This document shows positions 3,960 to 19,563 of a stretch of DNA of 21,270 nucleotides, one piece after another. The stretch comes from a virus. Under the pieces are notes generated by a model that was not told where the DNA came from, ran no database searches, and saw nothing but the letters and a program-made list of their open reading frames with translations. The DNA is taken from positions 1-21,270 of the IMG/VR virus record IMGVR_UViG_3300032333_000172, one strand, 5' to 3'. Position 1 is the first letter of the stretch, and each line of letters starts with the position of its first letter. A program made the position numbers and the translations under genes.

Positions 3960-3999
3960 TAGCCTATGCAGTTGATTGTTTTACTTACAGTGTCAAGCT
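3960..3999 (-). promoter_or_regulatory. Two-box repeat, copy A (candidate phage promoter or operator)
   Basis: On the minus strand this 40-base element reads AGCTTGAC, then 17 unconserved bases, then CAACTGCATAGGCTA. The same boxes with the same 17-base spacing occur at 11473-11512. The first box contains TTGACA, a good -35 hexamer, but no canonical -10 hexamer lies at normal spacing, so a phage-specific promoter or activator site is possible. It begins at the stop codon of the mucin-like gene and precedes the adaptor gene. Confidence 0.45.
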
Positions 4000-6900: not shown

Positions 6901-7141
6901 CAGGTGCGATCAAATACCAAATTGTAAGGTTAAGATTTCCCGTTGGTTGCGTCCAGCTCGAATTCACTGATTGAGTCATCGCAACGCCGTTGTACGTTAC
7001 GCCCGTGACGGTATCAGTATCTTGGTTGACCGTTATGCCAACAACAAGAATACGGTTTGAACCAGAACAGGTATGATTCCAGCTATTTGTGGATGCGTTG
7101 GATTGGTAGTGCGACGCTGACGCATCAAATGCAATAGCCAT
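3998..7141 (-). CDS. Mucin-like Ser/Thr/Pro-repeat virion surface protein
   Basis: A 1047-residue protein with alternating folded and repetitive parts. Residues ~1-210 form a beta-sandwich-like domain (ILVVGITVNQ, VTGVTYNGVAMTQ, MSLSFTGV, DWVVGAINFKQ). Residues ~212-488 consist almost only of Ser, Pro and Thr in units like SPSTSPSSSPSPSSSVS. Residues ~489-690 look like a LamG/concanavalin-type jelly roll (AMQIAS, HRFYFRYHTLP, YRVEVMQDS, WYFDDVAIN). Residues ~690-875 form another beta domain ending WAYVEYTAG. Residues ~877-1028 are a second Ser/Pro/Thr tract, and a short hydrophobic tail (VVQDIIMVGIIPFER) closes the protein. There is no cysteine-rich or cell-wall anchor motif. The tracts look like extended, O-glycosylatable stalks, and the neighbouring glycosyltransferases make this the likely acceptor. 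It is probably a fibre or capsid-surface protein; the virion location is inferred. Confidence 0.8.
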   Translation of the reverse strand: MAIAFDASASHYQSNASTNSWNHTCSGSNRILVVGITVNQDTDTVTGVTYNGVAMTQSVNSSWTQPTGNLNLTIWYLIAPATGVHAIQASFDASTPETVGMSLSFTGVLQASFIDNENAIAGQNDNMNGTLDTTVANTMIVAFCHNEQNNAGTPNAGFTETAEDLTTDGAYAQYGAAATATTYTPGWTATANGSLTDWVVGAINFKQASGASSSPSTSPSHSPSTSPSSSPSPSSSVSNSPSTSPSSSPSPSSSVSSSPSSSPSPSSSPSTSPSTSPSSSPSPSSSPSSSRSTSPSASPSPSSSVSTSPSTSPSSSPSPSSSVSTSPSTSPSTSPSTSPSSSPSPSSSPSTSTSTSPSSSPSPSSSVSNSPSTSPSTSVSSSPSTSPSTSPSTSPSSSPSPSSSVSSSTSTSPSTSPSPSSSVSDSPSTSPSSSPSPSSSVSNSPSTSPSSSPSPSSSVSSSPSTSPSTSTSSSPSTSPSTSPSTSPSAAPNQGRLWSSGFEQNTATANLEWTGNPGTAGTIQGTTVRSGGYAMQIASLASATRQGLGYQMYNGGGADLTYHRFYFRYHTLPSADNTIFVLSDVTFSNNGNFNIAIKLNSSGALELWKITGTDTQIGSDSSALSADIWYRVEVMQDSTGGATANAVSARIDGAEFASGTGLTITSSDRMCLGGNLQAESQTTGEWYFDDVAINTNDWAGAGSLILLKPSATGDANGFLVQVGGTAGDANNFTRVNEVTPDDATSYNASAVLNAEDLFNVENSGISSSDVVTLVHVGARFANLVAGDATAALKVEIEKASSGTIYQSAAIIPNSTSWKTNATAAPRNYPVTLYNDPDGSAWTQTTLDSMQIGYKETAANVRSIAVSGVWAYVEYTAGSSASASLSSSPSPSSSVSTSPSSSASASPSPSSSPSSSTSTSPSSSPSPSNSPSTSVSSSPSSSPSPSSSVSTSPSTSPSSSPSPSSSVSNSPSTSPSSSPSPSSSASSSTSSSPSSSPSPSSSASSSPSSSASSSPSPSSSVSTSPSTSPSAGVTVVQDIIMVGIIPFER
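4058..4513 (-). repeat. C-terminal Ser/Pro/Thr low-complexity tract
   Basis: This stretch encodes about 152 residues of near-pure Ser, Pro and Thr with occasional Val, Ala and Asn (units such as SPSSSPSPSSSVSTSP). Adjacent units use different serine codons (AGT, AGC, TCT, TCC, TCA) and proline codons, so the repetition is clearer in the protein than in the DNA. It is the second of two tracts in the same protein. Confidence 0.85.
5678..6508 (-). repeat. Central Ser/Pro/Thr low-complexity tract
   Basis: This stretch encodes about 277 residues composed almost only of Ser, Pro and Thr in SPS/SPST/SPSSS units, with Val, Asn, Asp, His or Arg in a few places (for example SPSSSRSTSPS). Codon choice varies between units. 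The opposite strand reads as long acidic frames rich in Leu, Gly, Asp and Glu, which are a by-product of the repeat and not genes. Confidence 0.85.
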
Positions 7142-7162: not shown

Positions 7163-7198
7163 TGGACATAGGTTAGTTTATAGGGTATACTTGATGTA
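7163..7198 (+). promoter_or_regulatory. Sigma70-type promoter for a leaderless HNH gene
   Basis: TGGACA at 7163-7168 and TATACT at 7186-7191 are separated by exactly 17 bases, a strong -35/-10 pair for a housekeeping sigma factor. Six bases follow the -10 box before the ATG at 7198, so the expected transcription start is the A of that ATG. No Shine-Dalgarno sequence precedes the ATG, which fits a leaderless transcript. Confidence 0.55.
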
Positions 7199-7647
7199 TG
7201 TTCACAGAGAAAGAAACCACTAGGATATTTTCTAAAATATCTATCGACAAAGACACTGGCTGCTGGAATTGGACAGGGACTATTGATCAAGGGTACGGAA
7301 GGATATCTTTTAGAGGAAAGCAAATTCGTTCCCATAGACTCCTTTATATCTGGCGTCATGGAAAGATCGAAAAGTGGAAAAACAAGCAGTCCAAAGAAGT
7401 TGACCATATCTGCAAGAATAGAGCCTGCTGTAATCCTGACCACTTGAGGCTGGTTTCTAACAAGATCAACGTTCTTCGTGGATCTGGCCCAACCGCTATA
7501 AACTCTAGGAAAAATTGTTGTATTCATGGTCATCATAGTAGTTACTTCTATGTTATCGGTAATCGCAGAAGGTGCAGAGAGTGCAGAAGAATCCTTGACT
7601 CATCTGATAAAAGGAAAGCGTGGGCAAAAAAACGCTCATTGTCCTAG
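7198..7647 (+). CDS. HNH homing endonuclease (only plus-strand gene)
   Basis: A 149-residue HNH endonuclease. The order GCWNWTG (residues 21-27), GYGRISFRGKQIRSHRLLY (32-50) and VDHICKNRACCNPDHLRLVS (68-87) is the standard phage HNH pattern, with catalytic His70, Asn79 and His82. The CxxH/CxxC set near the end (CCIHGHH ... CRECR) probably binds zinc. It is the only gene opposed to the rest. It diverges from the mucin-like gene (56-base gap holding its promoter) and converges on the GalNAc-transferase-like gene, overlapping that gene's 3' end by 12 bases. The composition is AT-rich relative to the neighbours. This looks like an independent selfish element inserted between two cooperating genes. 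Confidence 0.92.
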   Translation: MFTEKETTRIFSKISIDKDTGCWNWTGTIDQGYGRISFRGKQIRSHRLLYIWRHGKIEKWKNKQSKEVDHICKNRACCNPDHLRLVSNKINVLRGSGPTAINSRKNCCIHGHHSSYFYVIGNRRRCRECRRILDSSDKRKAWAKKRSLS

Positions 7648-8577
7648 CCTCTCTTTATCATCATCAGTCCACCCAGGTGGCGCGAACTTATCTACCAACC
7701 ATTGCACGTCGTGAATCTGTTTCGGATGTTTCTTCTCCCAGAACTTATCCTTGATATACTTCTTGGTTTTCTCTACTGCCTTGCCACTTTGTTCGTATGG
7801 GAACCCAAAGTCGCCGCCCTGTGTTCGGAACATGTGGGCGTACCAGGTCTTGTGGTTGCACAGCACTCGTAAACCAGAGAGCCAGGCAGAACAAGCCAGT
7901 TCTATACCCTGATTCCCCCACGATCCCGCCCGTTCGTCACACAGTTCATACTTCCAATAGTTATGTCGGGTAGACATGAAGAACGAACCCTGGAGTGACA
8001 TGGTTTCGGTATAGCCGTATTTCTCTTTCATCTCCTGGTATTCAGGTCGTCGTGTGTAGTCTCGGAAATACTGGAAGTGCGGCTCGGCATCGAAACAATA
8101 CGAGGTGCTCTCGGGCCGTTCCTTACCAATCCAGACCACATCTTTCGTTGTCGGCTTACCACACTCGATACATACCCCAGAAGGCCCCTGGTAACGTCTG
8201 TGGCCGTCCTCGCATACCCAATCGAAGGCATGGAGGTTCCGCATGATTCCTACTGCAACCATGTCGTCACCAACCTCTTTGAAGAAGTCGAGCATCTTTC
8301 GGTCGAAGCCCTGGTCGAATGAGCAGTGCGCGTCCACCTTGGCGACGTATCGCGCCCTTGAGAGTCGTGCAAGTTGGTTCTGCATAGCCCGTTGTCCAAT
8401 GGGTTCGGTAACGTGGAAGATCTTTACCCGTGGATGGTCGGGGATACCAGGTTCAGGCCAATATCCATCCAAGCCAACGAGAATCTCTGACGAATCAGTT
8501 GTGTGCTCTAGTAAGTCCTGGACAGTTCGTACCAGAAACTCCTCATTGCGAGCAGGCACTAAGAAACTCAGTTCCAT
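7636..8577 (-). CDS. GT-A glycosyltransferase resembling polypeptide GalNAc-transferases
   Basis: A 313-residue GT-A enzyme. It opens MELSFLVPARNEEFLVRTV like GT2/GT27 enzymes. KVDAHCSF at residues 80-87 supplies a D-x-H metal motif, the form found in polypeptide GalNAc-transferases (GT27), whereas most GT2 enzymes have DxD. GSWGNQGIELACSAWLSGLR (218-237) followed by HMFR (248-251) parallels the WGGEN...R.W.CGG and HVFR regions of GT27. Residues ~122-139 carry a C...H...CxxC zinc-ribbon-like insertion (VCEDGH ... CIECG). No ricin-type lectin domain is present. It lies beside the Ser/Thr/Pro-rich gene, separated only by the HNH gene, so initiating O-glycosylation of that protein is a reasonable role. 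The start overlaps the upstream methyltransferase end by 10 bases. Confidence 0.8.
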   Translation of the reverse strand: MELSFLVPARNEEFLVRTVQDLLEHTTDSSEILVGLDGYWPEPGIPDHPRVKIFHVTEPIGQRAMQNQLARLSRARYVAKVDAHCSFDQGFDRKMLDFFKEVGDDMVAVGIMRNLHAFDWVCEDGHRRYQGPSGVCIECGKPTTKDVVWIGKERPESTSYCFDAEPHFQYFRDYTRRPEYQEMKEKYGYTETMSLQGSFFMSTRHNYWKYELCDERAGSWGNQGIELACSAWLSGLRVLCNHKTWYAHMFRTQGGDFGFPYEQSGKAVEKTKKYIKDKFWEKKHPKQIHDVQWLVDKFAPPGWTDDDKERLGQ

Positions 8578-9071
8578 TGCGTCACGTCGATGGTGTTACT
8601 GACTACCGACACCCACGGCTTGCTCTCTTTCCAGTCATAGCGGTACTTAAAGTGTGGCCAGACGTTCGGATAGCCATACTGCCCTTCATTCTCTGGCTCG
8701 GTATCGTGCATCACGATTAGATCAGCGTTGGTAAACTTGAGCGCATCATCTCCCCTAGTATGGGGATTGATGCCACGGTCAGCCGTGTGGTCGATAAAGA
8801 CAACGGAATAGTGGCGGTCGTAGTCGATGTCACTGAAGTCTTCTGTCTTTCGCACTCGGTGGTTGTTTGTGCGGAACTTCCAGGCGTAGTGATAGTACTC
8901 GGGATCGCTTTCGTAGGTAATAACTTTGCGATCGATACAGAGCCAGTGAATCAGGGCGGTACTATAAAACCCTGCACCAACCTCGCATACGTCGCCCGTC
9001 GTCGCTTGGATGGCCTTCATAAGCGTCAGCATGTGGGTGCTCATCTGTTTCTGGTTTCGTGCGATTCTCAT
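8568..9071 (-). CDS. Class I SAM-dependent methyltransferase-like protein
   Basis: A 167-residue protein with a Rossmann-type motif I, VCEVGAGFYST, at residues ~28-38. An acidic ribose-binding position follows in VITYESDPEYY, with VVFIDHTADRG (motif IV region) and DLIVMHDTEPEN after it. The VFIDH and MHDTE pair is usual in Methyltransf_24-type enzymes. It is short for the family, lacking an extra cap domain. It starts at an ATGA overlap with the upstream GT-A gene and is followed by the GalNAc-transferase-like gene. A role in methylating a sugar is inferred from context; the substrate is not readable. Confidence 0.65.
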   Translation of the reverse strand: MRIARNQKQMSTHMLTLMKAIQATTGDVCEVGAGFYSTALIHWLCIDRKVITYESDPEYYHYAWKFRTNNHRVRKTEDFSDIDYDRHYSVVFIDHTADRGINPHTRGDDALKFTNADLIVMHDTEPENEGQYGYPNVWPHFKYRYDWKESKPWVSVVSNTIDVTQWN

Positions 9072-9697
9072 GCGTACTCCTTAATTAACTCTGAAGCCTT
9101 GCCCCACCTGGGAATGTCGTACGCTTTCACGGGCCCCAAGTCTTTCCAGTGAGCTTTCTGTCGTTCTTCTGTCGCATCGTCGTGGTTGATCTGAATGATG
9201 CCGATAGTTGAGTACCATTCGACCATCTTTCGTTTCTTCACCTGTAGTACCTGGTCAATTCTCCAGCGTCCAAGTTCCCCGACATACGGCCAGACAGGAT
9301 GTTTGGCGAACCGTTCCTCAAGAGCCTCAATAGCTAATTCTCTCGGAGCAATAAGGGAGCAATTTGATACTCGATTGCGCCAGTTATAGGTTGGCTTCCA
9401 CCACATGAAGAGAGCCCAGCGGTGCTGGTTGTAGGCGAACTCGTCCATCTTGGGGCGAAACTCACTGAAGTGTTCTGGAGGATAGAGTACGTCGTCCTCG
9501 ACCACTCCTATGTAAGGCGTCGTGGCTTGTTTACAGCCGATCAGCAACTGTTCGTAGATCCTCTGATAGCCCTGCTTTTCCTCGTCGTGGAGGGTAATCA
9601 TTGGGTAGGGGAGTTTGTCTAGCTGCTCCTTATGAAACTTCGTCCACTTCTCGGGACGTTTGCCGGCCGTGATAAAGAGCAGGGTGAGATCGCTCAT
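9068..9697 (-). CDS. GT-A-fold glycosyltransferase, unclassified
   Basis: This 209-residue protein starts MSDLTLLFITAGKRPEKW. It has PYIGVVEDDVLYPPEHF at residues ~61-77, where EDD (67-69) is a DxD-like nucleotide-sugar/metal site at the end of a beta-strand. A later acidic/aromatic region (GRWRIDQVLQ) and a C-terminal KAYDIPRWGK follow. The arrangement is that of small GT-A enzymes seen in phage sugar clusters, but it does not match one CAZy family that I can name. Start and stop both overlap their neighbours (ATGA), so it is coupled to the GT2 upstream and to the methyltransferase downstream. Confidence 0.7.
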   Translation of the reverse strand: MSDLTLLFITAGKRPEKWTKFHKEQLDKLPYPMITLHDEEKQGYQRIYEQLLIGCKQATTPYIGVVEDDVLYPPEHFSEFRPKMDEFAYNQHRWALFMWWKPTYNWRNRVSNCSLIAPRELAIEALEERFAKHPVWPYVGELGRWRIDQVLQVKKRKMVEWYSTIGIIQINHDDATEERQKAHWKDLGPVKAYDIPRWGKASELIKEYA

Positions 9698-10440
9698 AGC
9701 GTCCTCGTGTGATAACGATTGACCATCGTTTTTCGGCTTAGGGTGTGAAAGAGACCAAACGGGTTAGTGTCCACGTCGCCCCCCTCGCAGTACTTACCGT
9801 TCGGGAACATGTAGAGGGCTGGTCGCTGGTCGTAACCAACCAACTCGTCGAAGTCTTTAATCTCGCCCGCTTCGTGGAGCTTGCGCCAAACCTTCGCAAA
9901 GTCACCGTCCTCACGTTGTGGGTAAGGTTTCCCGATTCTATCTTCCCGGTAGCCTCCCATCTTCTTGTATAGATCCCTGTGAATCGCAAACTGGTTGCGG
10001 TGTGGTGTGAACGTTAGCTTGTAGCTGTCTGGGAGCCCCCAGGCTCGGAGTACGTCCCTGTCTTGCGTCAGGTTGCCTTTCTCGTCGAGTACGGCGAACT
10101 CTCGGTTTATCCGTATATGATCGCCGGTAAAGTTGCGTGTCTTGTCGATGAAGTCCCTGGTAATAATGTGGTCGAGATCTGCCATCATGAGATACTCGCC
10201 AGTAGAAAGTCTTGCGCCTGTGTTACGTGCTACTGGCCACGTCCACGGTCGTGTGTCGTTCGTTTGGTGAATCCGCAGCCATGGTCTAGCCTCCGCCTCT
10301 ATCTTAGGATCACTGCCATCGTCAATCAGCAAGACTTCCGTATCGTCTGGAATACCGATCTTGTCAAAGTGAAGCAATTGCCGCCTGACAATCTCGTGAC
10401 TGTTGAGAACGGGGATGATGATGCTGACTTTATAGCTCAT
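9694..10440 (-). CDS. GT2 glycosyltransferase
   Basis: A 248-residue GT2 enzyme: VSIIIPVLNSHE (5-16), VLLIDDGSDP (36-45), PVARNTGARLSTGEYLMMADLDH (69-91, with DLD as the DxD motif), and YPQREDGDFAKVWRK as the late acidic motif. No transmembrane segment is present, so it should be cytoplasmic and soluble. The start codon lies 11 bases inside the end of the 340-residue virion-like gene. The donor and acceptor sugars cannot be read from the sequence. Confidence 0.85.
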   Translation of the reverse strand: MSYKVSIIIPVLNSHEIVRRQLLHFDKIGIPDDTEVLLIDDGSDPKIEAEARPWLRIHQTNDTRPWTWPVARNTGARLSTGEYLMMADLDHIITRDFIDKTRNFTGDHIRINREFAVLDEKGNLTQDRDVLRAWGLPDSYKLTFTPHRNQFAIHRDLYKKMGGYREDRIGKPYPQREDGDFAKVWRKLHEAGEIKDFDELVGYDQRPALYMFPNGKYCEGGDVDTNPFGLFHTLSRKTMVNRYHTRTL

Positions 10441-11452
10441 ACCCCGCCACCGTGACGTAGATATTCCCCGCCGAGGTGGTGACTAATAGATCTGCGGCAT
10501 CTTCGCCTGACTTGAGTGGGTTATTGACACTGTACGGAGCTGATAAGCCTGATCCCGCTTTGAACTCACCTTTGAGTCGTGGGTCATCGCCTGCGACGAG
10601 ATCGTCCTCAAAGGTGATCGTTGAGTCGGCTGACGTTTGGAAGTAGAGGTGTGTGACATACCATCGCTTCCCTGCTGCCGGACTCCACACGATACCGTCG
10701 GTGACTGCGCCTGTGTTTGAGTAGTATTTGTTTACTGCGGTTGCTCCAGATGGGAGCGATGACATTGGAATCGCACCACCAGAACCGAGTACCGCCGAAA
10801 CTGCTGCGCCGTTTGAGTCTTTGAACGCCGGAGTCGCTGGGGTCGGGATTGGGAACACCATCCCCTTGATTGCATTCTCGACACCCTCAACTGCCTTGAT
10901 GACTGCCGAGTCGTCTTGTTCTGGGGCTTCTGGTGTTGACTCGCGGACTACGGCAGCTAACTTGACCAGGTTGTCATTGATTGATCGGAGCCCAGCTTGC
11001 ATATCCCCGAGGTTGTCGATGGTAAACGACTTGGGAATATCTACCGTGATCTTTTCAGTCTCTGTCGCTGGTTGGCTCTTGATCTCTTTCGCGAGTGCTT
11101 TGACTGCTTTCGCAACGTCCGCTGTCTGTCGTTCTAGTTCTGCTGTGGAAACATCTGTGGAAACTGATCCCGTAACTACCTGGACTGCTTTGTTTGGGAT
11201 ATTCAGCTCAATGAGGTCAACAGACTTGATGAGTTGGTCGATACCCTTGCCGAGCAATGAGAGTGATTTAAGTACGTCACCGAAGTTACTGACCGATACC
11301 GATTCAACAGGGTTCTTGACGGTAACTTCTGCATCACTCGGCCATTGAACTGTTGGCGTTACCACGACCGAAGGACGTTGCTCTGCCATCTTCTGCATCA
11401 TGGCTGCGTGGTTTCTATCGTTCCGTTGCTGCATTATATCTTGTATAGCCAT
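10430..11452 (-). CDS. Virion protein with coiled stalk and C-terminal beta domain
   Basis: A 340-residue protein with two parts. Residues ~1-200 look helical and stalk-like and contain a repeated module: VSVSNFGDVLKSL and FTIDNLGDMQAGL, each followed by a hydrophobic heptad-like stretch. Residues ~235-340 form a beta domain (DGIVWSPAAGKRWYVTHLYF, STITFEDDL, VNNPLKSGEDAADLLVTTS, IYVTVAGYEL) like those at the ends of phage fibres or capsid decorations. It is the only non-enzymatic, virion-like gene inside the run of sugar enzymes and is preceded by repeat copy B. It could be a second glycan acceptor or the fibre that the cassette modifies. No named family is recognised. Confidence 0.65.
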   Translation of the reverse strand: MAIQDIMQQRNDRNHAAMMQKMAEQRPSVVVTPTVQWPSDAEVTVKNPVESVSVSNFGDVLKSLSLLGKGIDQLIKSVDLIELNIPNKAVQVVTGSVSTDVSTAELERQTADVAKAVKALAKEIKSQPATETEKITVDIPKSFTIDNLGDMQAGLRSINDNLVKLAAVVRESTPEAPEQDDSAVIKAVEGVENAIKGMVFPIPTPATPAFKDSNGAAVSAVLGSGGAIPMSSLPSGATAVNKYYSNTGAVTDGIVWSPAAGKRWYVTHLYFQTSADSTITFEDDLVAGDDPRLKGEFKAGSGLSAPYSVNNPLKSGEDAADLLVTTSAGNIYVTVAGYEL

Positions 11453-11477
11453 ACGCCTCGCGTTCGCTTGTATAGCC
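11440..11477 (-). repeat. Direct repeat pair GGCTATACAAG
   Basis: The minus strand carries GGCTATACAAG twice, at 11477-11467 and 11450-11440, 27 bases apart. The downstream copy is the start of the virion-like gene (ATG GCT ATA CAA G). The upstream copy overlaps the second box of repeat copy B. A small local duplication or a binding-site pair are both possible. Confidence 0.5.
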
Positions 11478-11512
11478 CATGCAGTTGGCTATTTACGTGT
11501 ACTAGTCAAGCT
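11473..11512 (-). promoter_or_regulatory. Two-box repeat, copy B (candidate phage promoter or operator)
   Basis: On the minus strand AGCTTGAC is followed by 17 unconserved bases and then CAACTGCATGGGCTA. The first box is identical to that at 3960-3999, the second differs at one base, and the spacing is equal. It overlaps the end of the upstream GT2 gene (CTTGAC TAG) and lies directly before the virion-like gene at 11452, the first gene after a break in the overlapping-gene chain. The shared architecture argues for a common regulatory factor. Confidence 0.45.
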
Positions 11513-12266
11513 GCAAATTGTCGCGTTTCCAGTCCAAATGTAGCTCTTTTTCGTTCCAAGCGGGCTGTTTCCAGTGTTTTTTGAATATCTCGTAGCGTTC
11601 ATCTGAGCGCACTGGCAGCCCCTTCTCCTTGAGGAAACGAGCCCCGCCGTGCCTCTCGTGGTAGTAGAGAACGTCTGGGACGTAGTAACAGCTAACCCAG
11701 CGCTTCTTCATCTCGTGCCACAGCCAGTCATCCTCATACCCAATGCCACATTCTCCGAATACCCCATCCTGATAGAAGCCAATATCTCGTAGCATGGCAG
11801 CACGAAACAGGCCGTATTGTGTCCAGGCCATATCGAAGTCCTTGTACATCTTCCCTGGATTCTCCGGCCATACCTGGTCAGCTTCTTCCAACCGCTGTGT
11901 TCCGTCGTATCTTCGAGGGTTATGTACACCGATACACCCGACTTCTTTTGGTGATCGAAGTAGCATATCGGACAGTGCTGCAATCGTACCTGGAATGTAC
12001 TGAATGTCCCCATCAAGTAAGAATATGAAGTCTGTTTTACCCACCATCTTCAATCCAGCATTTCGCCCTACTGATGGCCCCTTATTGGACACGTTGCGAA
12101 CTAGTGTCGCCCAGGTGCCGTACTTCTGTAGTCTCTCCCAACTGTCATCGTCCGATCCATTGTCTACCACGATCACATTCCAGGGTTCTTTCTTGAGTCG
12201 GCGTAGCGACTGCTCTACCACGTCGATCTCGTTCAGGTTCAGAATAATGACACTAACGGAGACCAT
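11502..12266 (-). CDS. GT2 glycosyltransferase
   Basis: A GT2 enzyme of 254 residues: MVSVSVIILNLNE (1-13), VIVVDNGSDD (31-40), NKGPSVGRNAGL (61-72), and FIFLLDGDIQY (80-90) with DGD as the DxD motif. A late GYEDDWLWHEMKKR motif supplies the catalytic-acid region. I set the start at the ATG at 12266 because a strong GGGAGGAAGT ribosome-binding site precedes it and the GT2 fold begins there. The open frame extends 53 codons further upstream but shows no relevant similarity and would overlap the zinc-ribbon gene. With this start, the overlap with that gene is 14 bases. Confidence 0.87.
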   Translation of the reverse strand: MVSVSVIILNLNEIDVVEQSLRRLKKEPWNVIVVDNGSDDDSWERLQKYGTWATLVRNVSNKGPSVGRNAGLKMVGKTDFIFLLDGDIQYIPGTIAALSDMLLRSPKEVGCIGVHNPRRYDGTQRLEEADQVWPENPGKMYKDFDMAWTQYGLFRAAMLRDIGFYQDGVFGECGIGYEDDWLWHEMKKRWVSCYYVPDVLYYHERHGGARFLKEKGLPVRSDERYEIFKKHWKQPAWNEKELHLDWKRDNLQLD

Positions 12267-12447
12267 ACTTCCTCCCACAAGACGCGCAGACGTGGCACTC
12301 TTTTTTGTACCCATCATGGTCAAGCCACAAATGCCACATCTTCCGTATCTTCTTGCCGCAGTCGTTGCACTCTGGCTCTCTATAGCTTGGATACATATTG
12401 ATATTCCACTTGTTTTGCATTGCAACTAGTTGGTCTGGCGTGATCAT
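12253..12447 (-). CDS. Small zinc-ribbon protein
   Basis: A 64-residue protein with CNDCGKK near residue 27 and ECHVCASCGRKYG near the C-terminus. The cysteine pairs (CxxC and CxxCxxC) and a nearby DHDGYKK suggest a zinc ribbon. No enzymatic motif is visible. Its start overlaps the HAD gene stop as ATGA. Its position between the activated-sugar genes and a GT2 suggests it belongs to the sugar operon, but its role is unknown; it may be a small nucleic-acid-binding or structural zinc protein. Confidence 0.65.
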   Translation of the reverse strand: MITPDQLVAMQNKWNINMYPSYREPECNDCGKKIRKMWHLWLDHDGYKKECHVCASCGRKYGLR

Positions 12448-13043
12448 AGGTAATCCTTCATGAATACTCGGGTGACATCGTGGTAGCTCGGCGTGATAAG
12501 CACGTGGGCGAGCGATGCCTTGGCTGCTGCTACTCCTGGCACTGAGTCCTCAACGATCACGGTCTCATCGGGAGTAACGCCGAACTTCATCATGGCTTTC
12601 TGGTATATCTCTGGGTTTGGCTTTGAGTGTTCTACATCGTCACTGCCATAGACTCGATGCGTGAACTTCAATAACCCACTCCGCTCCAGCATCCGATAGG
12701 TGGAGAGGCTGCGAGCATTTGAGCAGACACCGATCTTATACCCTTTACTCTTAAGCGCCTTGAGGAGTCGGTACTTTTCTTTGTCAACAGTACATCGCTC
12801 GTCAATGATCTCCTCGAAATAGTCGGCCTTAGCTACTTCTATGGAGTCGCATATGTTGAGTGGTGTCCCGAGTATTTCTAGCTTCCTCCATGTCGGTAGA
12901 CCGTTCAGAACGCTGTCGTGCAACTCTCTGGTGATACTGATGCCGTGATCGCCTAGAGCGCGTACAAACGCCTCGTAGTGCCACTCAACGGCAGGTACAA
13001 GTACCCCGTCAAGATCAAATAAGATTACTTTGATAGGCTTCAT
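12444..13043 (-). CDS. HAD-superfamily phosphatase/phosphomutase (beta-PGM-like)
   Basis: A 199-residue HAD hydrolase with all four motifs. These are VILFDLDGVLVP near the start (nucleophile Asp in DLDG), GVCSNAR (motif II), KPNPEIYQ (motif III Lys) and VIVEDSVPGVAAAKA (motif IV). The alpha-helical cap between motifs I and II is that of the beta-phosphoglucomutase/HAD-IA type. I chose the ATG at 13043, after GGAGGA, since the catalytic domain begins there; an in-frame extension to 13118 lies inside the nucleotidyltransferase gene and looks spurious. The 29-base overlap with that gene suggests tight coupling, as expected if it isomerises or dephosphorylates the sugar phosphate activated by its neighbour. 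Confidence 0.87.
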   Translation of the reverse strand: MKPIKVILFDLDGVLVPAVEWHYEAFVRALGDHGISITRELHDSVLNGLPTWRKLEILGTPLNICDSIEVAKADYFEEIIDERCTVDKEKYRLLKALKSKGYKIGVCSNARSLSTYRMLERSGLLKFTHRVYGSDDVEHSKPNPEIYQKAMMKFGVTPDETVIVEDSVPGVAAAKASLAHVLITPSYHDVTRVFMKDYL

Positions 13044-13707
13044 AGTCCTCCGGTGTTCCGAGTCCGTGCATGGCTTTGGCTTCGACTTCATAAATCCCCA
13101 CTGTCTTACCCATCGCAATATATTCGTTATAAACAGGACAAAGATAAAACTCTCCTTTCGTTCGGATGTTCTTTCGAATCATCTGGTCGGCTGCCTGTAA
13201 GAAGTCATGTCCGCTGCCGAAGTAGTAGACGCCACAGGTTGCATGATTTGAGATTGGTACCTTTTCAGCAACGCCAACTACCTCGCCATTCTTCACGCTG
13301 GCATAGCTCCACTTGGGATCGGTAGCTGGGAAGGTCAGGATGAGTCCGTCGTAGTTCTTTGCCTTCGCTAGGAAGTCATCAATCTTAAAGTCAATCAGTT
13401 GGTCAGAGTTGACGATCAGGAGTGGCGTATCGCTGTCGATATGCTCTCGTACCTTGAGCACCGTTGATACTGCGCCATCGGTCGGTTCATCCAACCTCAG
13501 TACGAACGATCCGCTCGGTAGTGAGTCTAGGAGCAGATCGTATCGAGAGACGAAGGTGAACAGATGGTCTTGTGACGGCCTGACGTTCGATATAACGGCA
13601 TCTATCATGCGTTGACGACCAACAGGAAGGAATGCCTTATACACGTCGTATCCGGCTTCTTTAAACCGCTTGCCTTCTCCGGCGAGAGGCACCACAATTT
13701 GCAACAT
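13015..13707 (-). CDS. Sugar-phosphate nucleotidyltransferase
   Basis: A 230-residue nucleotidyltransferase of the NTP_transferase type, which makes NDP-sugars from a sugar 1-phosphate and an NTP. It opens IVVPLAGEGKRFKEAGYDVYKAFLPV. PLAGEGKRF (residues 7-15) is the nucleotide-binding loop and YKAFLPV corresponds to the usual PKPLIPV with the conserved Lys. LLIVNSDQLIDF supplies the metal-binding Asp region. The C-terminus MHGLGTPEDYEAY is typical of polysaccharide-type sugar nucleotidyltransferases. It starts at a TAATG junction with the HNH gene and overlaps the HAD gene. Which sugar it activates cannot be read. Confidence 0.85.
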   Translation of the reverse strand: MLQIVVPLAGEGKRFKEAGYDVYKAFLPVGRQRMIDAVISNVRPSQDHLFTFVSRYDLLLDSLPSGSFVLRLDEPTDGAVSTVLKVREHIDSDTPLLIVNSDQLIDFKIDDFLAKAKNYDGLILTFPATDPKWSYASVKNGEVVGVAEKVPISNHATCGVYYFGSGHDFLQAADQMIRKNIRTKGEFYLCPVYNEYIAMGKTVGIYEVEAKAMHGLGTPEDYEAYQSNLI

Positions 13708-14252
13708 TATATTCCCCTAACCTTAATTATTTTCTTAATATATTCATAAAACTCAGCCTCCGTTAACTTTCCCTTCATGGTATTGGCAAAGAACGAACAC
13801 CAAACAACGTTCCCCTGAACGTATCCCCTGTCAGGTATCAATCTGTCCAGAGAGGCACTATTAGGGACTGTCTTTCCGACACGGGCACCCCATACTAGCT
13901 TTTCATTTGTGTAATAGCAGAGCCCACCCTGTTTATCTAACAGATCAAGGAGGTATTTTGTCGTTAGATTGGATTTAACTCCGGTATCTTTGCTTCTCCA
14001 TTGGGATATCCTGGTAGTGATCCAGAAATTAGGTTCAGAGTAATGCTTATCTTTATATGCGTTCTTGATGGCTTTTATCTTTTCCTTATTTTTTTCTACC
14101 CACAATCTCCTTGCGGCTTTTCCTTTGCCACTATCGTAGTGCTTTTTACGAACTTCCCTAGTTTTTTCTGGGTTCTTGGCCTGCCAATCCTTACTCTGTT
14201 GGTTCATACGTTCTTTATTTTTCTGGTAGTATTCTTTGCTATATGTGCTCAT
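13707..14252 (-). CDS. HNH-type endonuclease with basic coiled N-terminus
   Basis: A 181-residue protein. The N-terminal ~70 residues are extremely Lys/Tyr/Asn-rich (KEYYQKNKERMNQQ, KNKEKIKAIKNAYKDKHY), a pattern common in phage HNH proteins. The C-terminal part CYYTNEKLVWG ... SASLDRLIPDRGYVQGNVV ... NTMKGKLTEAEF is the compact HNH fold with the S-x-D-R and GY..GNV signatures. The sequence is clearly AT-rich compared with neighbouring sugar genes. No Shine-Dalgarno site precedes the ATG, but an extended -10 box lies at 14259-14264. The gene sits between the FkbM methyltransferase and the nucleotidyltransferase and ends with TAATG, so it is a likely mobile insertion in the operon. Confidence 0.85.
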   Translation of the reverse strand: MSTYSKEYYQKNKERMNQQSKDWQAKNPEKTREVRKKHYDSGKGKAARRLWVEKNKEKIKAIKNAYKDKHYSEPNFWITTRISQWRSKDTGVKSNLTTKYLLDLLDKQGGLCYYTNEKLVWGARVGKTVPNSASLDRLIPDRGYVQGNVVWCSFFANTMKGKLTEAEFYEYIKKIIKVRGI

Positions 14253-14267
14253 ATAGTCATTATACCA
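14252..14267 (-). promoter_or_regulatory. Extended -10 promoter giving a leaderless HNH transcript
   Basis: The minus strand reads TGGTATAAT (extended -10; TATAAT at 14264-14259), then GACTAT, then the ATG at 14252. Six bases separate the -10 box from the ATG, so transcription should begin at the A of the start codon. No good -35 hexamer is visible, which the extended -10 can compensate for. The geometry is the same as at the plus-strand HNH gene. Confidence 0.45.
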
Positions 14268-14291
14268 CAATGATAAATGGAATAAGAATAT

Positions 14292-14942
14292 TTAGCATAC
14301 CTTCCCCTCGGGAATGTACTCGAACATCTCCCATGTCTTTTCGAGAAATGGTCGGACTACATACTTCACCCCTGTAGTTTCCAGCACTCTACCGAAGTCG
14401 TAGAAATGCTGAATGTCGTTATGCTCGACGAACAAGATCGGTTGGTGTTTCTTGATCGTTTCTACTGCACCAGCCAACACTCGTGCTTCCATATTCTCCG
14501 CGTCAATCTTGATAAGGTCGGGGGCCAGATCAAACGAGTCCAGCGTCGCACACTCTATATCACCGCCATCAGTGCAGTAGCTCGCACCCATATTATGTGG
14601 TTGCTCAACAGACGAGACCGTCCCCTCAGCATTGGAGAGGGCAACCTGGTGCTTCCAGGCATATGGTGCGCTCTTTGAGAGTCTCCGATAGTTCTCAGCG
14701 TTCGGCTCAAAGCAGGCGATGTCTTTGACACCCATTACGTCACGAAAGAATACGGTATGGTTTCCAATGTTCGCCCCAACGTCCACCACGCTCTTCAACT
14801 TGCCAGTGTAGTGCTTAAAAATGTGGTTCAGCAATGGAGTCTCGTAGAACTCACCCCTAGCAAGGTAGTTCGATATGTATTCGGTCGGTTCGTAGCCATA
14901 GACGTGGCACTTCATACCGCCCCATGTGACGGTGTATCTCAT
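14292..14942 (-). CDS. FkbM-family methyltransferase
   Basis: A 216-residue SAM-dependent methyltransferase of the FkbM type. VVDVGANIGNHTVFF (from residue 52) is motif I, CFEPNAENYRRL is motif II, and LIKIDAENMEARVLAGA is the FkbM signature. ILFVEHNDIQHFY near the end matches the motif that follows it. FkbM enzymes O-methylate sugars and other small acceptors, which fits a capping step in glycan synthesis. I chose the ATG at 14942, which overlaps the upstream GT2 stop as ATGA; a GTG two codons earlier is less likely. After it, about 39 bases separate it from the HNH gene. Confidence 0.88.
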   Translation of the reverse strand: MRYTVTWGGMKCHVYGYEPTEYISNYLARGEFYETPLLNHIFKHYTGKLKSVVDVGANIGNHTVFFRDVMGVKDIACFEPNAENYRRLSKSAPYAWKHQVALSNAEGTVSSVEQPHNMGASYCTDGGDIECATLDSFDLAPDLIKIDAENMEARVLAGAVETIKKHQPILFVEHNDIQHFYDFGRVLETTGVKYVVRPFLEKTWEMFEYIPEGKVC

Positions 14943-15484
14943 ACCCACTTCCCCTCGAAGTAGATACGGTTCTCGTCCGACAGTGGCGCATGTCTAGCTG
15001 GCCTATGGATAATCTTCCCTGGCAAACAGGTTATTTCGTAGCCCGCTTTTTTGATTTGCTTGCCATAGTCCGCGTCTTGGTGGCCTGGTTCTTTGTAGAA
15101 CTCGTCGGTTTGTCCGATGGTTGCGTAGGCTCGTCGTGAGAGTACAAGGAACGCAGAGTAGTCAGGATTGCTACTAGGATCAGTACAATAACCACCGCCG
15201 ATGCCACCCCAGCAAATGAGTGTGTCATTCATTTCTCCAATCTTAAACGCGCCGACATCTGATAGTGTGTCAGCCCATCCCGCTGTTACTTCAACGTCAT
15301 CATGCAACAGGGTAATGTAGTCACCTGTTGCCATCCGCATCCCGTAGTTGATCTTCTCGTTCAGTCCACCGTCGTGATCGACAACAATCACCTCGCAATC
15401 AGTTGTGTGTTGGTTGATTGAGTCGAGGCAGCGTTTCAAGCCGTCCGGTCTCCCCCGTGTAGGGATAACGATCGAAAGTCTCAC
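14939..15484 (-). CDS. GT2 glycosyltransferase (GTG start)
   Basis: A compact GT2 enzyme of 181 residues: LSIVIPTRGRPDGLKRCLDS (3-22), VIVVDHDGG (32-40), ATGDYITLLHDDVEVTAGW (52-70, with HDD as the DxD equivalent) and PGHQDADYGKQIKKAGYE near the C-terminus. The GTG at 15484 is preferred. It overlaps the methyltransferase stop as GTGA, follows AGGAAA at suitable distance, and places the fold at residue 1. The longer frame from 15538 adds 18 residues of unrelated sequence. Confidence 0.85.
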   Translation of the reverse strand: MRLSIVIPTRGRPDGLKRCLDSINQHTTDCEVIVVDHDGGLNEKINYGMRMATGDYITLLHDDVEVTAGWADTLSDVGAFKIGEMNDTLICWGGIGGGYCTDPSSNPDYSAFLVLSRRAYATIGQTDEFYKEPGHQDADYGKQIKKAGYEITCLPGKIIHRPARHAPLSDENRIYFEGKWV

Positions 15485-16152
15485 AGTGGTTTCCTGACTC
15501 GAATGTAATGCGTTGTCCCTTTGCGGATCGGATAACACTCGACAATAGAGAAACCAACTTCGTGCATCAGTTGAGCCAGCTCTGACTTACGGTAGAAGTA
15601 GTGGTGCTCGTCGTAGAAGTCATAGCCATTCCAAGGGAGTGGAATATCTCGGTAGTGGATGTACTGTGCATACCGTCCCTCGTTCGGATGGTATGTCCCC
15701 TGTAACTCTTTCATGGGCGTTGTGCAGATCAGCTCACCGCCTGGTTTGAGTGCATCGTAGAGCTTCTGGATCACCGGTACGGGGTTATAGTTCAGATGTT
15801 CGATCACCTCAGTGAAGTAGATACGATCAAAGTTATTGAGAAACAACTCGTCTGTCTCAAGATTGACTTTCCTAAAGCCAATACCCTGCCGAGCAAACTC
15901 GACCTCATTATGTAGCTCTGGCATCGCGTCGATGGCATAGACGTTGTGTCCCTGTGATCGCAAGTATGTGGCGAACGTTCCGTAGGCACAGCCAGCATCG
16001 AGGATGTTCAAATTCTCACCCATCGGCTGGTGCGCTAAGAAACTGTACAAGTCGGCCAGTGTCTCATCGTACACGCCACGATTGTCGTGTTGTTTCAGTC
16101 TGCCGTCTGGATTTGCAGCCTTTGCGAGTGCTTTGTCGATTGAGCAGATCAT
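15481..16152 (-). CDS. Class I SAM-dependent methyltransferase
   Basis: A 223-residue methyltransferase. NILDAGCAYGTFATYL (residues ~49-64) is motif I, YAIDAMPELHNEVEFA the ribose-binding region, and FTEVIEHLNYNPVPVIQKLYDALKPGGELICTTP the motif IV to post-motif segment of the Methyltransf_11/23 type. The VIEHL sequence is characteristic of small-molecule and sugar methyltransferases of this group. The start overlaps the GT4 gene as ATGA and the stop overlaps the GT2 gene as GTGA. A glycan substrate is inferred from the neighbours. Confidence 0.85.
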   Translation of the reverse strand: MICSIDKALAKAANPDGRLKQHDNRGVYDETLADLYSFLAHQPMGENLNILDAGCAYGTFATYLRSQGHNVYAIDAMPELHNEVEFARQGIGFRKVNLETDELFLNNFDRIYFTEVIEHLNYNPVPVIQKLYDALKPGGELICTTPMKELQGTYHPNEGRYAQYIHYRDIPLPWNGYDFYDEHHYFYRKSELAQLMHEVGFSIVECYPIRKGTTHYIRVRKPL

Positions 16153-17237
16153 TGGAGTGCTCCCTCGAATTCAACTAGCCATTCTTTGGCGATTGTAGAC
16201 CAGTTTGAATACTCGCGTGACTCATTCATCATCTTCTGTCGCATAGGCTCCTTAGACTCGCTTGTAGCGCGTAATAGGGCTATACAGCCGTTTGTCCACT
16301 GTTCCATGGACTCTTCTGGCAGTGCAACGCCCCCTTGGATGCTGTTGTAGTACCCTCGGTCGGTCTTAAAGCCATATTTCACGGTCTCAGCAACAGCGGC
16401 AGTCGGTATGACACATGGGATAGCTCCAGCGATCTGCGCCTTGATAGCCGTGATACAGCTAATCTCTGGCCACCACGTCGGATACGCCCAAACATCTGCT
16501 TCCAGCATCTCTTTAGCGACCTCTTTGTGTGAGATTCTGCCTAAGTGCGTGATACCTTCCTGCTGCATTGCCTGTTCGAGGTCTTCTTTGACGTTCTTGA
16601 ACGCTGCCATACTCTCCTCGCCTTGTTTCTTGGCGATGGACTCCCAGGTGTTCCAGCCGTAGGCAATGTGAAGTGTTGCATCTGGGACTGCCAGCTTGAT
16701 CTTCGGCCAATTCTCTAGCAGTTCCTTCAATCCTCGGTCGTAGCTTGAGCCGTAGAACAGTCGATGTGGTACTCGGTCTACTTTCTGGTTGAATTGGTCA
16801 ATGTTCACACCGTTTCTGGTGAGGTAGATGAACTTATTCTCTAGGGTTCCATACAGCCGACGGTGCCACTTCGATAACACCATGGCTTTTGAGGCTCCAA
16901 GGTTCAGCGAGTTGATGACTTCCTCCTCTGGGGTCGTGTCATGCAACCACTGGTAGCCCTTCTTGTAGTTCTTGCCCATCTTCCACGGCATGAGTGAGCG
17001 CCACCCGATGAAAATTTCTGTTGCCTCGCCTGTATAGTCCAAGAAGTCTACATACTTCACACCGTCGTATGTTCCAGCGTCATCTTCACACCGGTTGAAT
17101 ACCGTCGTCTCATGTCCGAGCTTGGCAAACTCACGGGCAATATTGATAACTGCCTCTTCGGATCCTCCAATACCTGTTGCTTCGTTCTTGGGCGACCATG
17201 CTTCATGTGAGTCACCACAGAAAATAGTTATCTTCAT
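16149..17237 (-). CDS. GT4 (GT-B fold) glycosyltransferase
   Basis: A 362-residue GT-B enzyme. The N-terminal domain starts MKITIFCGDSHEAW and carries GGSEEAVINIAREFAKLGHETTVF, the usual acceptor-side opening. The linker (NKFIYLTRNGVNIDQF) leads to the C-terminal donor domain, in which HLGRISHKEVAKEMLEADVWAYPTWW followed by EISCITAIKAQIAGAIPCV matches the GT4 sugar-nucleotide pocket. I prefer the ATG at 17237 over the one six codons upstream because it gives the same ATGA overlap as its neighbours and begins with the first beta-strand. It is the only clear GT-B enzyme in the cassette. Confidence 0.88.
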   Translation of the reverse strand: MKITIFCGDSHEAWSPKNEATGIGGSEEAVINIAREFAKLGHETTVFNRCEDDAGTYDGVKYVDFLDYTGEATEIFIGWRSLMPWKMGKNYKKGYQWLHDTTPEEEVINSLNLGASKAMVLSKWHRRLYGTLENKFIYLTRNGVNIDQFNQKVDRVPHRLFYGSSYDRGLKELLENWPKIKLAVPDATLHIAYGWNTWESIAKKQGEESMAAFKNVKEDLEQAMQQEGITHLGRISHKEVAKEMLEADVWAYPTWWPEISCITAIKAQIAGAIPCVIPTAAVAETVKYGFKTDRGYYNSIQGGVALPEESMEQWTNGCIALLRATSESKEPMRQKMMNESREYSNWSTIAKEWLVEFEGALQ

Positions 17238-17686
17238 TGCAGCTCCTCTTGCCAACCTGCTACCTTAGCTCTACCTAGCGCCATATCTGATAACATCTGT
17301 GCCTCCTTGAAATGATCCATATATGCATGGTTGGCTATCTGATGAGTAATTCTTTCCAAAAACACCGACTTAATAACACCCTTAGAATGTCTGCATGATA
17401 AGTCGCTAATAAGATGGAAAGCTTTTATAAGATCGCTGAATGTCTCGCGCGTGCCACGGTACTCCATGTCTTCTGTGTAACCTTGTTCATCTACATAATT
17501 GAAGCCGCATTCCAGTACTAATTCTTTGACTTCATCTATAAATTCACCAGAGACTCTAAGTGTAATGCCCTGTTCGTCCCTGAAATAATGCCACGAGCGA
17601 TCATCTATAAGAATTTCCCTATATAACTTATCTAATATGTCCTCTTGTCTTCTGGGAGTTTTAGCATCAATTCTAATGTGTCTCAT
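17234..17686 (-). CDS. Unknown AT-rich gene inside the sugar cassette
   Basis: A 150-residue protein starting MRHIRIDAKTPRRQEDILDKL. It contains SWHYFRDEQGITLRVSG near residues 32-48, EYRGTRETFSDLIKAFHLISDL in the middle and a helical C-terminal half. I do not recognise a family. The pattern of W.YFR....ITLR then a tyrosine-rich middle faintly resembles lanthipeptide-dehydratase C-terminal domains, but not convincingly. The codons are more AT-rich than those of the flanking glycosyltransferases. It is stitched in by ATGA overlaps on both sides, so it should be expressed with them. Confidence 0.7.
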   Translation of the reverse strand: MRHIRIDAKTPRRQEDILDKLYREILIDDRSWHYFRDEQGITLRVSGEFIDEVKELVLECGFNYVDEQGYTEDMEYRGTRETFSDLIKAFHLISDLSCRHSKGVIKSVFLERITHQIANHAYMDHFKEAQMLSDMALGRAKVAGWQEELQ

Positions 17687-18375
17687 TTGATTGGCCTCTC
17701 GATCTTGTCAGCAATGTGGATGTCGTGCTGCTTAATATACTTCCCGTCTTCAACGATACCAACGTGGCGCATGATCTTGGCGTGTCCGGCAACCACTCCC
17801 TCAACCTGTGTGACTGTGAACCCTTGCGCGATGCAGTCTTGGTAGAACTCGAAGTCTTCACCACCGAAACCGTCAGCCTTGCCGTACAGTACTTTCTTAC
17901 CGTTCCTGAGTCGGTCAAAGGCTTGCCCACCGCGTCGGAAGTATGGTCGGGATAGTTTCTCGAAGACCGATACCTCAACGAGCGTGCAGCCTAAGCCAGC
18001 CCACATGATCGGCTTACCTGCCGTGTCATCGCCTGGCATCCAGTTGTCGTAGGCGACGTTCCCCGTGTTCTTTCCTTCACCGGATGTGTAGTGGCTTGGG
18101 TAGTCAATCAAGGTAATTGGCTCTTGTTTATCTAACATAGCCTGTACGCCACCCACTGGGATGATTACGTCGTCATCTACCATGAGCAGGTGCGTGAAAG
18201 GTACACCTGAGTCGAGGGCTTGCTCTACTAACTGATTCCGACAATCTGGAATTGGTAGGTCTGTGGTGTAGAACTTGGCGTGTTGAATCCGTGCCAACTC
18301 TCGGTCAAGTGCGGCGATGGTCTTCGTAAACAACGTGCCTCTCGTTGGGATAAGGACAGCAAGTAAGGGCGTCAT
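17683..18375 (-). CDS. GT-A glycosyltransferase, first of the cassette
   Basis: A 230-residue protein with a GT2-like opening MTPLLAVLIPTRGTLFTKTI, then THLLMVDDDVIIPVGGV (residues ~61-77), where VDDDV is the DxD motif. GFGGEDFEFYQDCIAQGF supplies the late acidic motif, and GHAKIMRHVGIVEDGKY follows near the end. I set the start at 18375 because the fold begins there and it overlaps the upstream stop as ATGA. The frame continues 42 codons further upstream into the 80-residue gene in another register, with no meaningful sequence. Confidence 0.82.
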   Translation of the reverse strand: MTPLLAVLIPTRGTLFTKTIAALDRELARIQHAKFYTTDLPIPDCRNQLVEQALDSGVPFTHLLMVDDDVIIPVGGVQAMLDKQEPITLIDYPSHYTSGEGKNTGNVAYDNWMPGDDTAGKPIMWAGLGCTLVEVSVFEKLSRPYFRRGGQAFDRLRNGKKVLYGKADGFGGEDFEFYQDCIAQGFTVTQVEGVVAGHAKIMRHVGIVEDGKYIKQHDIHIADKIERPIK

Positions 18376-18614
18376 GCGTACCTCGTCCAGTGATTCAATT
18401 CGTTTACATCTACAATATACTCTCGTTTCGTCTGCTCGTCTCGGATACGCACCATCCCATCCTGCTGTTCCTGATTCTCTACCTTGTACATGTGGCTCCA
18501 TTTCACTCGCAGCCAGGTCGGCCCTTGACCGTAATTCCTCACATTCGCCCAGCCACGTTGAAACGAACCTTTATCTTGGTTCTTTACCCATTCGGGCGTA
18601 CTCCATGTTCTCAT
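18372..18614 (-). CDS. Hypothetical 80-residue protein
   Basis: An 80-residue protein that opens MRTWSTPEWVKNQDKG and ends VDVNELNHWTRYA. It is rich in Trp, Arg, Lys and Gln and contains WLRVKWSHMYKVEN and MVRIRDEQTKREYIVDV, which look like beta-strands. A good Shine-Dalgarno site (AAGGAGA) lies 7 bases before the ATG. It is the first gene after the capsid protein and its stop overlaps the first glycosyltransferase start. I do not recognise a family; it could be either a minor capsid-associated protein or part of the sugar operon. Confidence 0.7.
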   Translation of the reverse strand: MRTWSTPEWVKNQDKGSFQRGWANVRNYGQGPTWLRVKWSHMYKVENQEQQDGMVRIRDEQTKREYIVDVNELNHWTRYA

Positions 18615-18684: not shown

Positions 18685-19563
18685 CTATTGTGCGTACGAG
18701 AAGGCAACACCGTGGTTGTCACGGTATTCTTTGACGCCGTACAGCATCTGACCGATGAGTTCATCAGCGAGCTGTGGCGCATTTCGCCAGTGTTCCATTT
18801 TCTTGTCGACTTGCTCGGCATGAATGAACGCTTCTTTGTGCACCATAAGTGCGCGTGAGAGTGTTCCTGCAACAACCGAGGTGGTCTGCAAGTTGGTCGT
18901 GACGTATACAGGAATACCGTATACCGAACCGAACAAGCCATTGGCACCGATACCATTGGTAACACGGTTTGCACCGTCTTGAGCAATGGAGTCGTAGCGT
19001 GTGAACTTGTCGATCAATCGCAGATCTTCGATGCCATAAGGATCAATGATAAACGAGCGATCTTGCTGTGGCGCATCTGCCAAGTCGAGGAATCGGATTG
19101 CCCGAACCAAGTCTGTGTCAGTGATACCCGAACCAGTACCAGCGGTTGCACCAACAGTCTGTGACAGACCTGAGTACAAGGCTAGAAGGCTAGAGTCGAG
19201 TGCTTTTGCTAAGCCAAAGCCAATTTTTTGGGTGTACAGGCTCATCATATCGTATGAGCTTTGTACGCGAGCAATGTCTTCCAATGTGACGCGGATACCC
19301 TTGTGGGTGTCGACGACGAGGCTGATATCAGTCTCAGTCGTTGCGGTTGATGGGAGCTCAGTGTTCGCTGTTTTTGTCGTTGCGCTCATGTTTGAAAGCA
19401 ACGGGATGTGCAAGGTGTCGCCCTTGCTCTTGATGTCGCCATATCCTGAAACGTCGAAGAAACGATTAGCAGCAACCAGGTTATTCTGGGTTGCTTTTTG
19501 TACTAGATCGCTCCACAACTCTGGGATGTAGACGGCAACTGTGCCAATGCCAGTATTTGCCAT
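18685..19563 (-). CDS. Major capsid protein (HK97-type fold)
   Basis: A 292-residue coat protein. After a short N-arm (MANTGIGTVAVYIPELWSD) come GDTLHIPLL, ATTETDISLVVDTHKGIRVTLEDIA and the alpha-helical spine helix region YDMMSLYTQKIGFGLAKALD. RSFIIDPYGIEDLRLIDKFTR and SVYGIPVYVTTNL follow, both of the form seen in the P-domain and A-domain of HK97-type capsids of the P22/T7-like group. The C-terminus holds GQMLYGVKEYRDNHGVAFSYAQ. It directly follows the scaffold gene, with an AAGGAT ribosome-binding site. No protease or delta domain is visible, consistent with a separate scaffold. Confidence 0.9.
   Translation of the reverse strand: MANTGIGTVAVYIPELWSDLVQKATQNNLVAANRFFDVSGYGDIKSKGDTLHIPLLSNMSATTKTANTELPSTATTETDISLVVDTHKGIRVTLEDIARVQSSYDMMSLYTQKIGFGLAKALDSSLLALYSGLSQTVGATAGTGSGITDTDLVRAIRFLDLADAPQQDRSFIIDPYGIEDLRLIDKFTRYDSIAQDGANRVTNGIGANGLFGSVYGIPVYVTTNLQTTSVVAGTLSRALMVHKEAFIHAEQVDKKMEHWRNAPQLADELIGQMLYGVKEYRDNHGVAFSYAQ

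Follow-up and report, generated by a model that had tools for sequence, protein, structure and literature searches.

Only a few cases are known in which virions are glycosylated by the phage's own enzymes, and the mucin-type O-glycosylation of peptides is regarded as chiefly an animal and protist process. In the serine-rich repeat adhesin loci of Gram-positive bacteria, which involve accessory Sec systems, a glycosyltransferase (GT) cluster lies beside a Ser-rich repeat protein that is thought to be modified in the cytoplasm. Among phages, the capsid and tail-tube subunits of mycobacteriophages are glycosylated, according to the passages of PMC12619734 that cite Freeman et al. 2023. Among archaea, a Methanobrevibacter smithii protein has been predicted from its structure to be a polypeptide N-acetylgalactosamine (GalNAc)-transferase, the passages that describe it mentioning no repeat-protein partner (PMC10939349). 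For a phage mucin-like protein accompanied by GTs, we found no describing paper in the open-licence literature. Here, we analyzed the whole of IMG/VR record IMGVR_UViG_3300032333_000172, a 21,270-bp metagenomic fragment of an uncultured tailed phage (hereafter, the window), in which a GT-rich cassette and a gene for a mucin-like protein lie between the coat and adaptor genes. We think it likely that this region is a dedicated, mucin-type O-glycosylation pathway for a mucin-like virion protein.

Like the serine-rich repeat adhesin loci, the cassette adjoins one Ser-rich repeat protein, but no SecA2/SecY2, signal peptide, or wall anchor was seen among its genes, its putative initiating enzyme is of another type, and it lies among phage late genes. 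As in the mycobacteriophages, as they are described in those passages of PMC12619734, phage GTs sit amid virion genes (also in contigs L275, L008, and L022) and sugars are expected on virion proteins; there, however, the coat and tail tube are modified, whereas here a dedicated repeat protein accompanies a polypeptide-GalNAc-transferase-like enzyme, GT313. The M. smithii protein is likewise prokaryotic but archaeal rather than viral, and is likened here by its description in PMC10939349 only.

When a profile of 35 GT313 relatives was compared with PDB sequences, polypeptide GalNAc-transferases ranked first (1xhb, E=3.3e-12). With an AlphaFold2 model of GT313 (pLDDT 94) as the query, the best 50 Foldseek matches were all polypeptide GalNAc-transferases, and a DALI-like re-alignment gave 29/29 such entries a Z of 23.8-27.4 over 257-274 residues, with a clear gap below them to the next-best other GT (Z 19.3 over 183 residues). 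Residues D82, H84, and H248, which form a DxH motif and a distal His, are invariant in the 35 relatives; the DxH aligns with the DAH/DSH, and H248 with the His of GHVFR, of polypeptide GalNAc-transferases. In predicted fold and motif, GT313 is polypeptide-GalNAc-transferase-like. The likeness to the GT27 system of animals and protists thus takes in predicted fold, DxH, distal His, and a Ser/Thr/Pro-rich repeat protein as the likely acceptor, whereas GT313 is viral, presumably cytoplasmic, and only ~16% identical. Relatives occur in at least 340 of the ~2.9 million viral contigs of IMG/VR, a lower bound since the contig scan was pattern-limited, the nearest being 71% identical, and none was found among 50,697 GenBank phages.

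The second element is the mucin-like protein itself, which has 1047 aa, 431 of them in repeats that include 306 Ser/Thr. All six Ser codons are in balanced use in these repeats, which indicates that they are kept as protein rather than arising as a slipping DNA repeat. Its middle domain is common to other proteins with Ser-Pro-Ser-x (SPSx) repeats (E down to 8e-96), among which repeat length varies, and an N-terminal hydrophobic signal is missing in 85/86 viral repeat proteins. SPSx-repeat proteins adjoin GT313 in most loci. Counting only viral loci in which GT313 has 5 kb of sequence to either side, a Ser/Thr/Pro-rich open reading frame (ORF) lies within 5 kb of GT313 in 42/44, at a median of 63 bp when downstream. 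The association was also examined in reverse, with viral stretches chosen by a DNA pattern for the repeat and GT313 ignored in the choice. In a first batch, GT313 was encoded by 4/46 records with an SPSxSPS ORF, exactly the four with the most repeats (exact p=6e-6), while the 49 other scan records, without such an ORF, held no full-length GT313 and one partial, weak match. A second batch, with a longer pattern, had GT313 in 4/47 records (rank p=0.004). Taken together, GT313 was present in 8/93 SPSx-ORF records (including L404, which lies within contig L039, already known from the forward search) versus ~1 in 8,500 of all contigs, which amounts to an enrichment of very roughly several hundred-fold. 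This reverse test serves in place of an unselected baseline for Ser/Thr/Pro-rich ORFs, as the HNH164 query for unselected control phages yielded two loci only.

Under the pathway that we propose, catalysis would take place in the host cytoplasm, where GT313 would transfer the first sugar from its putative donor to Ser/Thr in the Ser-Pro-Ser-rich repeats of the 3998-7141 protein, its presumed acceptor. The remaining GTs would extend the glycan, the methyltransferases would cap it, and the nucleotidyltransferase/HAD pair would provide an activated precursor. Through late expression alongside the coat and adaptor genes, the protein, by then glycosylated and stiff like a "bottle-brush," would enter the particle as a fiber or surface decoration, where it might act in adsorption, protection, or mimicry of surface glycoproteins. 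Of this, the analysis shows the gene content, the predicted GalNAc-transferase-like fold with its metal motif, the pairing of GT313 with the repeats, and the coat-cassette-mucin-adaptor order that is kept in L275. If the proposal holds, a GalNAc-transferase-like enzyme and an SPSx protein would furnish many phages with a mucin-like coat, and GT313 would offer a small, soluble initiating GT to study and would serve to mark a large group of uncultured phages.

Several observations weigh against this interpretation. The WGGEN motif of GT27 is absent from the GT313 family, which has WG[QSN][QMV]GxE, as is the C-terminal ricin-type lectin domain, the 313 aa of GT313 being catalytic fold throughout; strict GT27 membership fails on these two features, and the donor and acceptor may therefore differ from those of GT27. 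Some contigs encode a long SPSx protein but no GT313 (for example, L347), so the link between the two is strong but not absolute. Since the mucin middle domain was modeled poorly, too poorly for a structure search, the virion role of the repeat protein is argued from gene position and the absent signal peptide. Further, the cassette is far larger than that in L275, which makes other targets possible, and the copies on Patescibacteria chromosomes show that virions are not the only setting of the module.

Read along the minus strand, the window carries the portal C-terminus, a 66-aa ORF, a scaffold-like ORF, the coat gene, and the cassette, followed by the mucin-like gene, an SU10-type adaptor, a 157-aa ORF, an HNH gene, a phrog_1084 protein, and a phrog_3287 virion protein. 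Between the coat (stop at 18685) and adaptor (start at 3928) lie 14,756 bp that hold seven GT-like genes, three methyltransferases, an NTP_transferase, a HAD enzyme, small ORFs, an antisense HNH gene, and the 1047-aa Ser/Thr/Pro-repeat protein. From coat to adaptor, the features are as follows.

18685 to 19563, minus: major capsid protein (coat), left flank of the cassette (phrog_267 E=1e-47; PF25209).
18372 to 18614, minus: 80-aa ORF, overlapping the following ORF when the latter is called at its first start (ORF call; no family over cut-off).
17683 to 18501, minus: GT-A-like GT candidate, GT272, the true start probably downstream of 18501 (DDD-type motif; no Pfam or PDB support).
17234 to 17686, minus: 150-aa ORF within the tight operon.
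16149 to 17255, minus: group 1 (GT-B) GT (PF00534 E=7e-6; phrog_2170 E=3e-8; relative in L005).
15481 to 16152, minus: S-adenosylmethionine (SAM) methyltransferase (PF13489 E=2e-24).
14939 to 15538, minus: GT2-type GT (PF00535 E=5e-11).
14292 to 14948, minus: FkbM-type methyltransferase (PF05050 E=1e-14; TIGR01444 over cut-off).
13707 to 14270, minus: 187-aa ORF, possibly HNH-type endonuclease-like as read by eye (no family match).
13015 to 13707, minus: sugar nucleotidyltransferase, NDP-sugar pyrophosphorylase (PF00483 E=9e-9; PDB 4evw E=4e-14).
12444 to 13118, minus: HAD-family phosphatase or phosphomutase (PF13419 E=5e-29; beta-phosphoglucomutase-like family E=1e-27, below its cut-off).
12253 to 12447, minus: 64-aa Cys-rich ORF (ORF call only).
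11502 to 12425, minus: GT2-type GT, the true start probably downstream of 12425 (PF00535 E=6e-19).
10430 to 11452, minus: 340-aa protein, mid-cassette, which may be structural (no family match; no relative in any fetched locus).
9694 to 10440, minus: GT2-type GT, GT248, core block (PF00535 E=7e-12; homologs in many GT313 loci, L240 E=5e-102).
9068 to 9697, minus: GT-A-like GT, GT209, core block (PF00535 E=0.006; 75% identical in L240, EDD invariant).
8568 to 9071, minus: methyltransferase-like protein, MT167, core block (homologs in 47 loci; family profile weakly matches PDB 3ntv, E=0.03).
7636 to 8577, minus: GT313, polypeptide-GalNAc-transferase-like GT, core block (profile vs PDB E=3e-12; model pLDDT 94; Z 23.8-27.4).
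7198 to 7647, plus: HNH homing endonuclease gene, antisense to GT313 at its 3' end (PF13392 E=7e-11; relatives likewise placed in L022, L024, and L273).
3998 to 7141, minus: mucin-like protein, with an N-terminal domain, two Ser/Thr/Pro repeats, a middle beta-rich domain, and a short C-terminus.
3266 to 3928, minus: SU10-type adaptor, right flank of the cassette (PF24175 E=2e-23).

Four of the seven GT-like genes score above the Pfam cut-off, and 16149-17255 falls 0.4 bit below it; 9068-9697 is marginal, with EDD invariant in its family, and 17683-18501 was recognized by its DDD-type motif alone. Against PDB, the GT209 profile had no match and that of GT272 no sensible one, while an NDP-sugar pyrophosphorylase was the only relative found for the nucleotidyltransferase. 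The methyltransferase call for MT167 is a weak one, the window protein itself having no family match. The cassette divides into a core (7636-10440) that is widespread and an additional block (11502-18501) that has no counterpart as a block among the relatives compared and may be a later addition. All of it lies on the virion-gene strand except the antisense HNH gene, and most neighbors overlap by 1-173 nt or are spaced by at most 70 nt, the exception being 494 bp at that HNH gene. An Rfam search of the window returned zero matches, and promoter- and terminator-like sites were no more frequent than in shuffled sequence.

A preliminary description of this DNA had placed an ~11-kb cassette, making up about 14.5 kb together with the mucin-like gene, in an opened coat-adaptor junction inside the virion operon; the measured interval, the common strand, and the mostly overlapping genes bear this out. 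Its inventory was right for the three methyltransferases (one weakly supported), the nucleotidyltransferase, the HAD enzyme, and the mucin-like gene but gave six GTs where we count seven GT-like genes. The product that it supposed to be virion-directed gains support from the likeness of GT313 to polypeptide GalNAc-transferases and from the near-constant Ser/Thr/Pro-rich neighbor. The supposed likeness to P22-like phages is not supported, as the coat (phrog_267/PF25209) and adaptor (PF24175 SU10_adaptor) match other families.

Nor do the relatives support a recent splice peculiar to this phage. L275, from another metagenome, has a homologous portal (4e-18), scaffold (3e-6), coat (3e-6; PF25209), and adaptor (1e-20; PF24175), and its coat-adaptor interval holds a shorter GT cassette in which GT313 is followed by a 779-aa SPSx protein as the last gene, the order found in the window. 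In L303, the order is portal, GT313, SPSx protein, and adaptor; in the more distant L008 (coat phrog_1328), it is coat, SPSx protein, cassette, HNH, and adaptor; and in L022 (coat phrog_14242), it is coat, cassette, repeat protein, and tail fiber protein. With L253/L265, in which cassettes lie in or beside the coat-adaptor region, these contigs mark the coat-adaptor slot as a recurrent one for the module. GT cassettes are missing from this junction in Mastigocladus phage CHP58, in which the coat and PF24175 adaptor are 298 bp apart, and likewise in L084 (~1 kb apart), CRP-603 (4.2 kb), and L146 (4.6 kb). The window coat as a query found no relative in viral contigs, the coat alignment diverged too far to be scanned as a pattern, and the L275 portal matched only L275 itself. 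As these searches yielded no cassette-free contig of the same species, the empty site is drawn from distant relatives, CHP58 and L084. A conserved block elsewhere, which the preliminary description had named as evidence against its own reading, was found for the core only, and those blocks, whether in the late regions of phages or in Patescibacteria, again adjoin repeat proteins.

The best-surviving alternative, which we nonetheless hold to be unlikely, is that the GTs decorate other virion targets (the coat, the 340-aa protein, or tail proteins) and that the repeat protein is a mere neighbor. The position of the cassette directly after the coat gene would fit this, as would the glycans that the cited passages of PMC12619734 place on mycobacteriophage capsid and tail-tube subunits, but the reverse test ties the repeats to GT313, and the repeat protein is the partner retained, mostly within 5 kb, across unlike coat families (phrog_267, phrog_1328, and phrog_14242). 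Modification of the host surface, in which the cassette would alter the envelope glycans of the infected cell so as to mask receptors or exclude superinfection, has still less in its favor. Two of the cassette GTs match GtrB-like PHROGs, and related clusters on Patescibacteria chromosomes lie beside Ig/cohesin/dockerin-type surface proteins; yet, unlike O-antigen conversion (Gtr) cassettes, this one sits amid virion genes with no polymerase, no match to the GtrA flippase family in Pfam and PHROG scans, and no multi-pass hydrophobic segments that are clear in a simple scan, and its GT313 resembles peptide-modifying enzymes. The same hydrophobicity scan found no signal peptide or clear membrane segment in any cassette product, in contrast to O-antigen conversion systems. 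Hypermodification of phage DNA, with GTs acting on modified bases, is a known use of phage GTs (Pyle 2024, as cited in passages of PMC12619734) but is very improbable here, given that family scans recognized no base-modification gene in the 21-kb fragment, that the cassette lies among late virion genes, and that the key enzyme is polypeptide-GalNAc-transferase-like. An assembly chimera, which the preliminary description had also named, might be suspected of a 21-kb metagenomic fragment whose block at 11502-18501 was not found in relatives, but it is scarcely credible, and for the core is contradicted by L275, a separate sample with the same order and homologous backbone proteins, and by the comparable placement in L303, L008, and L022, on top of the single strand and mostly overlapping genes.

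Outside viruses, close homologs of GT313 are almost confined to Patescibacteria, in part on chromosomes. A set of 84,980 species genomes of bacteria and archaea contains GT313 relatives in 44 loci, most in assemblies named as Patescibacteria lineages, and in one carrier's phylum, 3/286 other genomes sampled (~1%) have GT313. On a closed Patescibacteria chromosome, the genes to either side of a cluster of GT313 and SPSx proteins are VanW-like, solute-binding, chaperonin, ChlI, and DprA genes, and such clusters with SPSx proteins are chromosomal in Patescibacteria in L195, L198, L225, and L305-L312. We considered whether all Patescibacteria loci are prophages and rejected this, because, in 16 genomes scanned for terminases, none was matched near GT313 and because cellular genes flank the closed-chromosome cluster. 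L203, a contig in a Patescibacteria metagenome-assembled genome, shares its ORF layout with the viral IMG/VR contig L251; the pair is a phage binned with Patescibacteria, through either a host link or misbinning, and some bacterial GT313 records may therefore be misbinned phage. In the GT313 tree, viral sequences are intermingled with bacterial ones, the branches with good support requiring at least 11 switches, and the window groups with L022 (99/99), which also has the antisense HNH gene. Judged from these sequence comparisons, the distribution and the tree suggest a Patescibacteria host and repeated exchange. A tentative broader picture, about which we hold slightly more doubt than belief, is that of a widespread, uncultured phage group, represented by at least 340 contigs of IMG/VR and perhaps infecting Patescibacteria, whose self-contained mucin-type O-glycosylation comprises a GT27-like polypeptide transferase, enzymes for elongation and capping, and an SPSx "mucin" of its own that coats the virion, the module having moved repeatedly between phages and Patescibacteria chromosomes. 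If true, this raises how the module came to be common to both. In a patescibacterial phage genome paper (PMC13059738), the word stem "glycosyl" is absent from the main text. The SPSx proteins of the Patescibacteria chromosomal clusters are nearly all without an N-terminal hydrophobic signal, and in L195 and L198, the GT313 cluster is near Ig/cohesin/dockerin-type surface proteins.

Some further features of these loci were observed. Many GT313 relatives (L007, L011, L014, L018, L019, L275, and others) carry a fused second domain of ~200 aa (YYTDN...EHDV), which by eye looks like another GT-A-like domain, akin to the separate GT209 of the window. Upstream of the GT cluster in L216 is an intein-splicing and LAGLIDADG protein (315-2999). 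Finally, an antisense HNH gene lies at the 3' end of GT313, or immediately beyond it, in the window (7198-7647), L022 (10870-11364), L024 (10928-11455), and L273 (10946-11308), and a related one lies inside the GT313 gene of L040 (10547-11038), so that GT313 looks to be a recurrent homing target.

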